41,117 nucleotides of DNA from a virus: the IMG/VR virus record IMGVR_UViG_3300023083_000107, positions 1-41,117 of that record; one strand, given 5' to 3'. The notes under the pieces were generated by a model. The model was not told where the DNA came from, ran no database searches, and worked only from the letters and a program-made list of their open reading frames with translations. This document shows, one piece after another, positions 36,256 to 37,509 of this stretch. The position numbers and the translations under genes are program-made. The first letter of the stretch is position 1. The number at the start of each line of letters is the position of its first letter.

Positions 36256-36320
36256 TCCAGCCCAACAGCGAATCCCAAACATACGGCGCCCCCGTCAACG
36301 CATGGAGGAACGGTGCATGA
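36252..36320 (+). CDS. Possible 22-residue coupling peptide
   Basis: MIQPNSESQTYGAPVNAWRN plus two residues. It starts inside the stop of the preceding gene (ATGA) and its own stop overlaps ATG 36317 of the next (ATGA). A GGAGG at 36304-36308 lies inside it. It could be a real small protein or just a link for translational coupling. Confidence 0.4.
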   Translation: MIQPNSESQTYGAPVNAWRNGA

Positions 36321-37509
36321 GCTGGCTCTTTTCGCGGGCGCTGCTGGCGGGATACTCGGCGGCCACTTGCTGGGCTGGCGCACCGTCTGCGCCGTTGAGC
36401 GTGATGCCTACGCCGCACAGGTTCTCGCGCAACGACAAAACGATGGCGCCCTCCCACCTTTCCCGATTTGGTCTGACGTGCGCAGTTTTGACGGCCGACC
36501 ATGGCGAGGAATTGTTGATGTGGTATCGGGCGGGTTTCCCTGCCAGGACATCTCAGCTGCAGGCGGCGGCGCCGGGATCGACGGCGAGCGCTCCGGGCTG
36601 TGGCGAGAAATGGCGCGAATCATCAGTGAGGTTCGATGTGAAAGCGTCCTGCTGGAAAACTCACCGCTGCTTGTGGGACGAGGCCTTGCCGTGGTCCTCG
36701 GTGACCTTACCCGCCTGGGGTATGACGCTCAATGGTGTTGTATTTCAGCAGCCGACTGCGGCGCGCCCCATAAGCGCGACCGCATCTGGCTTGTGGCCCA
36801 CGCCAACCGTGCATGGCAACCACAACCAGCCGGGCAGCAGCAAGCACGCCGGATGGGGCCTGAGCAGCGCCGTCAAACAATGGACATCCCCCAGCCACAA
36901 ACCCACCTGGTCCCGAGCTCGTTCCACGTCGACCGCCCATACGTGGCCAACGCCCGTGGCGAGCATGGCCAAGGGATCTTCACCCAACGCCCTCACCCGC
37001 AAATCTGGCGCGAGCCGCACCCGGGACCGGCTGGATCACGCTGTCATGGCCTCAGACCATGGCCACCTGAACCCGGAGTGGGTCGAGTGGCTGATGGGCT
37101 GGCCCATCGGCTGGACCGACTTAAAGCCCTTGGAAATGGCCAGGTTCCGCGAGTGGCAGCAACAGCATTCAATTTCCTGCACAACAACCCAAAGCAAGAA
37201 GGCAGCATGATGGACACACTCAAACAACTGGCCATACAAGCCAACGACATCACCTGCAGCGGGCCACTCATCCATCCCGCATGCCCTGCACCCTATCGCC
37301 TGTTTCTGGCTGCAGCGACACCGGCGGCGATCATCGATTTGTATGAGCGGATGGAGGCATCCGAACGCCAGGCCGAAAAAGCCCGGACCATCCACCAGCT
37401 CGTCGACGGCCTCGCCCAAGACGTCGAAGGCAAGGTCCGCAAGCTCCACGAGGCCATGACCACAGCCCACAAAATGCCGACGTTCGAGATCGACAAGGAG
37501 TGCAAATGA
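36313..37509 (+). CDS. C5 cytosine DNA methyltransferase (frame a)
   Basis: 398 residues from GTG 36313. C5 motifs in order: LALFAGAAGGILGG (4-17, motif I), GGFPCQDIS with catalytic Cys77 (motif IV), LLENSP with Glu115 (motif VI), RDRIWLVAHA (155-164, motif VIII), and GRVADGLAHRLDRLKALGNG then QVPRVAATAF (257-286, motifs IX-X). The methylase ends near residue 289; the frame then runs without a stop into a separate small protein (from 37207). The region between motifs VIII and IX is Gln/Pro/Arg-rich. From 36317 to 37210 the +1 frame is also open and reads like another phage protein. Orphan methylase; no cognate nuclease seen. Confidence 0.85.
   Translation: MHELALFAGAAGGILGGHLLGWRTVCAVERDAYAAQVLAQRQNDGALPPFPIWSDVRSFDGRPWRGIVDVVSGGFPCQDISAAGGGAGIDGERSGLWREMARIISEVRCESVLLENSPLLVGRGLAVVLGDLTRLGYDAQWCCISAADCGAPHKRDRIWLVAHANRAWQPQPAGQQQARRMGPEQRRQTMDIPQPQTHLVPSSFHVDRPYVANARGEHGQGIFTQRPHPQIWREPHPGPAGSRCHGLRPWPPEPGVGRVADGLAHRLDRLKALGNGQVPRVAATAFNFLHNNPKQEGSMMDTLKQLAIQANDITCSGPLIHPACPAPYRLFLAAATPAAIIDLYERMEASERQAEKARTIHQLVDGLAQDVEGKVRKLHEAMTTAHKMPTFEIDKECK
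36317..37210 (+). CDS. Overlapping phage protein in +1 frame of the methyltransferase (frame b)
   Basis: 297 residues from ATG 36317, 8 bases after GGAGG; the frame itself is open from 36224. Protein-like blocks include VLTADHGEELLMWYRAGFPA (58-77), RFDVKASCWKTHRCLW (105-120), SSVTLPAWGMTLNGVV (127-142), ASGLWPTPT (156-164), TWPTPVASMAKGSSP (209-223) and LNPEWVEWLMGWPIGWTDL (251-269). From memory, proteins with this order of motifs occur in other phages next to or merged with C5 methylases. The stop (TGA 37208-37210) overlaps ATG 37207 of the next gene, and most third positions are G or C. Both points suggest real translation. Function unknown; a target-recognition or modification partner is possible. 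Confidence 0.65.
   Translation: MSWLFSRALLAGYSAATCWAGAPSAPLSVMPTPHRFSRNDKTMAPSHLSRFGLTCAVLTADHGEELLMWYRAGFPARTSQLQAAAPGSTASAPGCGEKWRESSVRFDVKASCWKTHRCLWDEALPWSSVTLPAWGMTLNGVVFQQPTAARPISATASGLWPTPTVHGNHNQPGSSKHAGWGLSSAVKQWTSPSHKPTWSRARSTSTAHTWPTPVASMAKGSSPNALTRKSGASRTRDRLDHAVMASDHGHLNPEWVEWLMGWPIGWTDLKPLEMARFREWQQQHSISCTTTQSKKAA
37207..37509 (+). CDS. Ea22-like small early protein
   Basis: 100 residues from ATG 37207 (AAGAAGG upstream; ATG 37210 also possible). It is in frame with the methyltransferase and could be made alone or as its C-terminal extension. YRLFLAAATPAAIIDLYERM is typical of Ea22-like early proteins; a coiled helical part follows. Function unknown. It ends with ATGA overlap to the PrtN gene. 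Confidence 0.7.
   Translation: MMDTLKQLAIQANDITCSGPLIHPACPAPYRLFLAAATPAAIIDLYERMEASERQAEKARTIHQLVDGLAQDVEGKVRKLHEAMTTAHKMPTFEIDKECK

Follow-up and report, generated by a model that had tools for sequence, protein, structure and literature searches.

C5-cytosine methyltransferases that are split between two polypeptides have been described previously. M.EcoHK31I is composed of two polypeptides, the larger of which contains motifs I-VIII, motif X and a predicted recognition domain, and the smaller of which contains motif IX (PMC3404938). In M.AquI, motifs I-VIII are found on the large subunit and the distal recognition region, motif IX and motif X on the small subunit (PMC3404938). M.EcoHK31I recognizes YGGCCR and has a small polypeptide of 176 aa; M.AquI recognizes CYCGRG. 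The small M.EcoHK31I polypeptide is reportedly encoded in an alternative frame inside the gene of the large one (Lee, Kam and Shaw 1995). Long same-strand overlapping genes for which both products have been placed are rare in prokaryotes, and most candidates lack comparative support.

Here, we describe two overlapping reading frames, frames a and b, which are encoded on the same (+) strand of a virus record of 41,117 bases, hereafter the window. The closest known case is M.EcoHK31I: as judged by sequence motifs only, motifs I-VIII and X are located on the first polypeptide and motif IX on the second one in both systems. The second polypeptide of the window is also encoded in an overlapping frame, as is reported for M.EcoHK31I, and this layout is found in 262 loci. 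Unlike in M.EcoHK31I, frame b of the window starts 4 nt after the start of frame a and spans the whole gene (297 aa), frame b proteins of this type contain multiple exchangeable cassettes, and the pair is found in phages with no partner endonuclease seen. Furthermore, the recognition domain is predicted to be part of the large subunit in M.EcoHK31I (PMC3404938), whereas it apparently belongs to frame b in the window. By analogy, based on the motif layout only and without a sequence comparison, we consider it likely that the window encodes a system that works like M.EcoHK31I, except that its second gene is longer, its starts overlap and its cassettes are exchangeable. Two reading frames are also used inside the methylase genes of mycobacteriophages that contain the ShiLan domain; however, this domain is an inserted homing HNH endonuclease gene read in the third frame and not a methylase subunit (PMC11855218). 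None of the literature searched describes whole-length dual coding in phage methylases; most subscription journals were outside the scope of this search.

Layout of the locus and its two starts

The features of the locus are listed in Table 1. The initial annotation had proposed two starts (GTG 36313 and ATG 36317), a frame b of 297 codons with its stop, and an ATGA overlap; all of these coordinates check, and the peptides it quoted for both frames are exact. Its suggestion that one GGAGG can serve both starts holds as a position (36304-36308, with spacings of 4 and 8 nt). The claim that the stop of frame b overlaps the next gene held only in part: the ATGA at 37207-37210 does overlap this stop, but the ATG of the downstream gene (37207) lies in frame a and is read through, with no stop in frame a before 37509. 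Frame a of the window thus passes motif X and enters the next ORF (MMDTLKQLAIQAND..., 37180-37509), resulting in a frame of 398 aa, unlike in the closest relatives, in which frame a terminates directly after motif X.

Table 1. Positions of the sequence features of the overlapping methylase locus in the window.
Feature	Position	Strand	Remarks
Shine-Dalgarno sequence GGAGG	36304..36308	+	Could serve both starts: 4 nt before GTG 36313, 8 nt before ATG 36317
Frame a, C5-cytosine methyltransferase catalytic subunit (I-VIII + X)	36313..37185	+	PF00145, phrog_363, M.HhaI/M.HaeIII profile match
Frame a catalytic domain, residues 1-165	36313..36807	+	Motif I FAGAAGG (AdoMet-binding), catalytic PCQ (GGFPCQDIS), ENS, motif VIII
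Frame a disordered stretch, residues 174-275	36832..37137	+	pLDDT <50; usual place of recognition domain and motif IX
Frame a motif X (HRLDRLKALGNGQVPRVAATAFNFL; written also KALGNGQVPRVA)	37105..37179	+	Kept across 66 relatives
Frame b overlapping gene, 297 aa, proposed specificity subunit	36317..37210	+	ATG 36317, stop TGA 37208-37210
Frame b N-terminal block (MSWLFS..AL..., residues 1-101)	36317..36619	+	Protected from stops
Frame b middle block (ASCWKTHRCLW...LPAWGMTLNG..., residues 102-158)	36620..36790	+	Part commonest among distant relatives
Frame b cassette 1 (WPTPTVHGNHNQPGSSKHAGWGLSSAVKQW)	36794..36883	+	Cassette cluster of this type in 29 loci, at varying array positions
Frame b cassette 2 (WPTPVASMAKGSSPNALTRKSGASRTRDRLDHAVMASDH)	36944..37060	+	Also present in other loci
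Frame b motif IX (LNPEWVEWLMGWPIGW)	37067..37114	+	Nearly invariant in 66 relatives
Downstream reading frame MMDTLKQ...	37207..37509	+	In frame and continuous with frame a in the window phage

The arrangement of the starts is shared by the relatives. Shine-Dalgarno-like cores of at least 4 bases are present at 78% of the frame b starts in 175 loci, as compared to 9% at random positions, and the aligned spacing peaks at 8 nt to the ATG of frame b and 4 nt to the frame a codon. The codon found at the usual start of frame a was determined for 176 loci and is mostly ATG (87 loci) or GTG (55), followed by TTG (16) and TTA (15). The 15 loci with TTA prompted us to consider a frameshift near the start (CTCTTTTC), which was rejected: no such shift is needed, as most loci with TTA or CTG at this position have an upstream frame a start codon, in several TTA loci with its own Shine-Dalgarno sequence. 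Each of the two starts is preceded by its own Shine-Dalgarno-like sequence in L068, L079, L144 and L147. The N-terminus of frame a differs in L058, L069 and L157, and frame b still opens there with M/V-[ST]-W-L-[IF]-S-x-A-L, now from an upstream start, so that the WL[FI]S-x-AL peptide is encoded by the upstream extension. Independent initiation of frames a and b is the simplest reading of these observations, although it is inferred and has not been demonstrated.

Both frames are held open by selection

In the window alone, the openness of frame b is marginal and no more than expected at chance level: synonymous shuffling of frame a keeps frame b open in approximately 7% of the trials (2.1 stops expected, p=0.068). 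One could therefore argue that frame b is not translated and that its openness results from codon bias or from a constraint on the methylase gene at the RNA or DNA level, especially as GC-rich genes frequently have an open +1 frame merely by chance. The relatives speak against this explanation. Frame b is free of stops in 251 of the 262 unique loci with the layout of the window, which come from phages, prophages of several phyla and archaeal MAGs. For 129 unique loci, 3.8-5.1 stops would be expected per locus, yet almost the only stop observed is the TGA that immediately precedes the ATG of frame b. In frame c, stops are more numerous than predicted by shuffling (about 17 versus 12-14 per locus), and the openness of frame b is therefore not due to a general dislike of stops. 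In addition, frame b is equally open in relatives with a GC content of 46-50%.

The strongest evidence comes from the codons used in frame a. A stop in frame b arises from a Leu or Val codon ending in TG that is followed by a codon starting with A, or from a Leu, Val or Ile codon ending in TA that is followed by a codon starting with a purine. In 66 diverse genes, Leu/Val codons ending in TG are never used before a codon starting with A (0/219), as compared to 907/2484 (37%) elsewhere, and Leu/Val/Ile codons ending in TA are found in 3/2174 cases before a purine versus 334/1414 (24%) elsewhere. Such avoidance is absent from 196 flanking ORFs, with 46% versus 44% for TG and 14.3% versus 14.7% for TA. 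The avoidance of TA codons is present in every region of the gene; for residues 1-60, the numbers are 0/348 before a purine and 112/559 before a pyrimidine, and for residues 61-100, 0/314 and 48/137, respectively. As it holds in residues 1-60, the N-terminal part of frame b is protected as well. Towards the other end of the gene, the third bases of the 4-fold degenerate frame a codons P253, V258, G261 and A263, which lie under motif IX of frame b, have zero entropy in 66 sequences. The identity excess of frame b over synonymous shuffles looked strong at first, but we dropped it as N-terminal evidence, since the excess of frame c is nearly equal there. The claim of dual coding thus rests on stop avoidance, as the N-terminal identity excess alone proves little.

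It should be kept in mind that the relatives share ancestry and are not fully independent, and that some of the loci were picked by their similarity to frame b; frame b is, however, also open in loci from viral contigs that were fetched by similarity to frame a alone. Across the relatives, chance openness of frame b is excluded and both frames are held open by selection, as shown by comparative sequence evidence. The view that frame b is untranslated can all but be ruled out: the stop avoidance is specific to one frame and missing in the neighbouring genes, the relatives of lower GC content do not differ, and six rearranged loci described below, in which motif X is part of frame b's ORF, require frame b to be translated.

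The pair of frames is widespread. A tblastn search with frame b identified full-length matches in named Acinetobacter, Salmonella, Pseudomonas, Klebsiella and Microcystis phages, in all of which frame b is open over the whole methylase and frame c is full of stops. In a genome scan, the pair was present in Pseudomonas, Acinetobacter, Halomonas, Chromobacterium, Burkholderia, Akkermansia and other Verrucomicrobia, and also in Planctomycetota, Nitrospirae and two archaeal MAGs. Mycobacteriophage SG4, Lacticaseibacillus phage R23.9, Synechococcus phages and phage C72C1 are more distant relatives whose frame b contains the middle block and motif IX; in several distant relatives, including the mycobacteriophage and lactobacillus ones, frame b is only open from mid-gene. 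Public gene annotation mostly records the locus as a single gene, so that only one of the frames is retained. Two phage records, of Pseudomonas phage phPA-G and Vibrio phage 1.236.O, list frame b alone, labelled as a hypothetical protein, without an entry for the catalytic methylase frame (loci L003, 2001-2729, and L170, 1442-2140). The methylase of Mycobacterium phage Llama (L168, 1132-1891) is annotated as two genes, 74 and 75, with the frame change inside the catalytic domain. In a Gallionella MAG (L228, 2994-3990), the matches to the catalytic and frame b profiles both change frame near codon 85, as would result from a single indel that displaced the two.

Distribution of the methylase motifs between the two frames

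Database searches with both translations assign frame a to PF00145 (E 6.5e-30, residues 6-182, 105 bits with a cut-off of 22) and phrog_363 (E 3e-61), and its profile matches M.HhaI and M.HaeIII. PCQ and EN are invariant in the frame a alignment, and the window has GGFPCQDIS and ENS at these positions. The initial annotation had assigned all C5 methylase motifs up to GNGQVPRVA to frame a; motifs I-VIII and X are present there, and motif IX is found in frame b instead. Neither motif IX nor a recognition domain is present in the frame a chain, in which the Pfam match stops at residue 182 and residues 174-275 are disordered. AlphaFold2 predicts a catalytic domain (residues 1-173) and a confident C-terminal helix, separated by residues 174-275 with a pLDDT below 50, and the best structural matches to this model, M.HaeIII and M.HhaI, align over only about 169 columns. 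This agrees with the earlier impression that the middle of frame a (residues 165-250) is less protein-like. For residues 166-245, identity is 0.145 in frame a versus 0.199 in frame b, and we think that residues 174-275 of frame a are probably an out-of-frame reading of the cassettes of frame b.

Frame b matches phrog_1008, which is labelled 'DNA methyltransferase' (E 5e-20), and has no matching model in Pfam or NCBIfam. A sequence search of the PDB with frame b only returned chance matches, and frame b alone was poorly predicted by AlphaFold2 (pLDDT 57, pTM 0.27) without a fold match, so that a recognition-domain fold has not been shown. Its most conserved element is LNPxWVEWLMGWPxGW. Motif IX of M.HhaI reads LHPRECARVMGYPDSY and has the same spacing. 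Sequence and model together show that frame b carries a motif-IX-like element and that frame a is without one. In frame b, motif IX is preceded by one to several (W/L/F)PTP cassettes, and the same cassette types recur at different positions in different loci. Based on this position and exchange only, we infer that the cassettes are likely target-recognition modules. In single-chain relatives, the motif IX element lies between the cassettes and motif X. As the cassettes and motif IX occupy this place in the single-chain proteins, frame b likely contains the elements that separate motif VIII from motif X in a typical C5 methylase, which is again an inference from sequence alone. Motif IX and the recognition-like cassettes of frame b had been missed by the initial annotation, and they explain the two-frame arrangement.

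Natural rearrangements provide further information on the role of frame b. For all 281 unique loci that have a catalytic domain, we determined in which frame every motif lies; as some loci were fetched by similarity to frame b, the resulting proportions should not be read as a census. In 262 of the 281, frame a contains motifs I-VIII and X and frame b motif IX. Seven loci are single-chain and six remained unclassified (three incomplete, three other). In the remaining six (L058, L241, L249, L269, L294 and L335), frame a has 3-18 stops between motif VIII and the position of motif X, and frame b is open and runs through motif IX into motif X. Frame b of the rearranged loci still spans the methylase; for L249 and L241, it aligns with frame b of the window (E 9e-31 and E 6e-37, respectively), and the end of frame b in L241 aligns with motif X of frame a. 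The six loci are scattered in a tree of the catalytic domain, with 7 layout changes in all. The motif distribution of these loci resembles that of M.AquI; in contrast to M.AquI, their second ORF overlaps the whole first ORF, and the window itself keeps motif X in frame a. In these loci, in which motif X no longer depends on frame a, frame a has decayed after motif VIII and frame b has not. This is hard to explain if frame b has no product that belongs to the methylase, and we regard the existence of such a product as very likely. The interpretation of L058 (2100-3520) is less straightforward, as a third-frame HNH-like sequence (CAKCGSTSTLQRHHKDRNPTNN...) lies between motifs IX and X; it recalls the hidden HNH found in the ShiLan domain (PMC11855218). 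L126 was considered as a natural fusion of frame a to frame b and rejected, as it reads as a single indel near motif IX.

In the single-chain layout, all elements are found in one frame. Gp5 of Gordonia phage Phinally has LLPTP cassettes, motif IX (LNAAFAEWMMMLPAGH) and motif X after motifs I-VIII; it is similar to the window with regard to motif order, cassettes and motif IX, but is made as one chain from one frame. One of its cassettes is identical to a frame b cassette of Salmonella phage S9-5 at 19/34 positions (56%, E 1e-7), and the frame b profile matches the C-terminal part of single-chain proteins (L179, L182, L184, L187-L189) with E-values of 1e-6 to 7e-4. Rearrangements thus place motif X in the ORF of frame b, or the cassettes, motif IX and motif X in one chain. 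At the Phinally locus (L179, 1703-2137), frame b is open with the middle block and LPTP cassettes, and more cassettes are found downstream in the methylase frame; this arrangement is possibly a trace of a move from the overlapping to the single-chain layout.

Two other explanations assume that at least parts of frame b are translated. First, a programmed +1 frameshift after motif VIII could produce one chain with motifs I-VIII, the cassettes and motif IX, and frame b would then not be an independent gene, as had been suggested initially as the alternative to true dual coding. In favour of this, the fused product of the six rearranged loci would contain every motif in the right order, and a single chain exists in Gordonia phages. 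However, frame b is protected from its own ATG onwards, including residues 1-160, which would never be translated by a shift after motif VIII. The third bases of frame a near motif VIII are close to random (1.93 of 2 bits for A150 and 1.66 for G149), so that there is no conserved slippery site or other conserved nucleotide signal, and motif X would be missing from the fusion product in the common layout. A frameshift is therefore very unlikely, and this alternative of the initial annotation is not supported. Second, frame b could be a genuine overlapping gene that does not encode a methylase subunit but has a function of its own, for example as an inhibitor of host defence or a regulator. There is no direct assay of frame b, its N-terminal block has no known homologue and two phage records annotate it merely as a hypothetical protein. 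Against this, single-chain methylases elsewhere include motif IX and the cassettes, six loci have motif X in frame b's ORF, and frame a is without motif IX and cassettes, and we see very little room for a separate role. The true dual coding alternative is strongly supported by the relatives, in which frame b is open and no synonymous freedom is left under motif IX. A search for homologues with only one open frame, which might have refuted it, also favoured dual coding, as it is frame a that decays in six loci and frame b that stays open and contains motif X.

A proposed two-subunit phage methylase

Based on these results, we propose true dual coding of a two-subunit methylase with frame a as the catalytic and frame b as the specificity subunit. 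We hold this with high confidence, although it is inferred from sequence alone and there are no expression, assembly or methylation data. In this model, ribosomes would be loaded by one Shine-Dalgarno sequence and initiate translation at one of two codons, GTG 36313 for frame a or ATG 36317 for frame b. The frame a product would be the catalytic subunit, providing AdoMet binding, the PCQ nucleophile loop, motifs I-VIII and the C-terminal motif X. The frame b product would be the specificity subunit, made up of the N-terminal and middle blocks, exchangeable (W/L/F)PTP recognition cassettes and motif IX. The two products would then assemble to form an active methylase, which may shield the phage DNA from host restriction. 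Independent initiation, physical assembly, the recognition role of the cassettes and the anti-restriction role are all inferred. In a bolder reading, which we still find more plausible than not, the locus belongs to a large and ancient phage-borne methylase family with whole-length dual coding, in which the subunits start a few bases apart and cassettes would be shuffled between genomes while staying open in two frames, with repeated exits from this state, either through transfer of motif X to the second frame or through fusion into one chain.

Taken together, selection for both frames is nearly absolute across hundreds of loci, and the rearrangements point to the role of the second frame. This implies that many 'DNA methyltransferase' entries of phages and prophages describe only half of the enzyme, and that cloning the annotated gene with recoded codons would probably yield an inactive enzyme. 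The locus could serve as a tractable system for studying the co-evolution of two proteins that are encoded by one DNA and exchange recognition modules.
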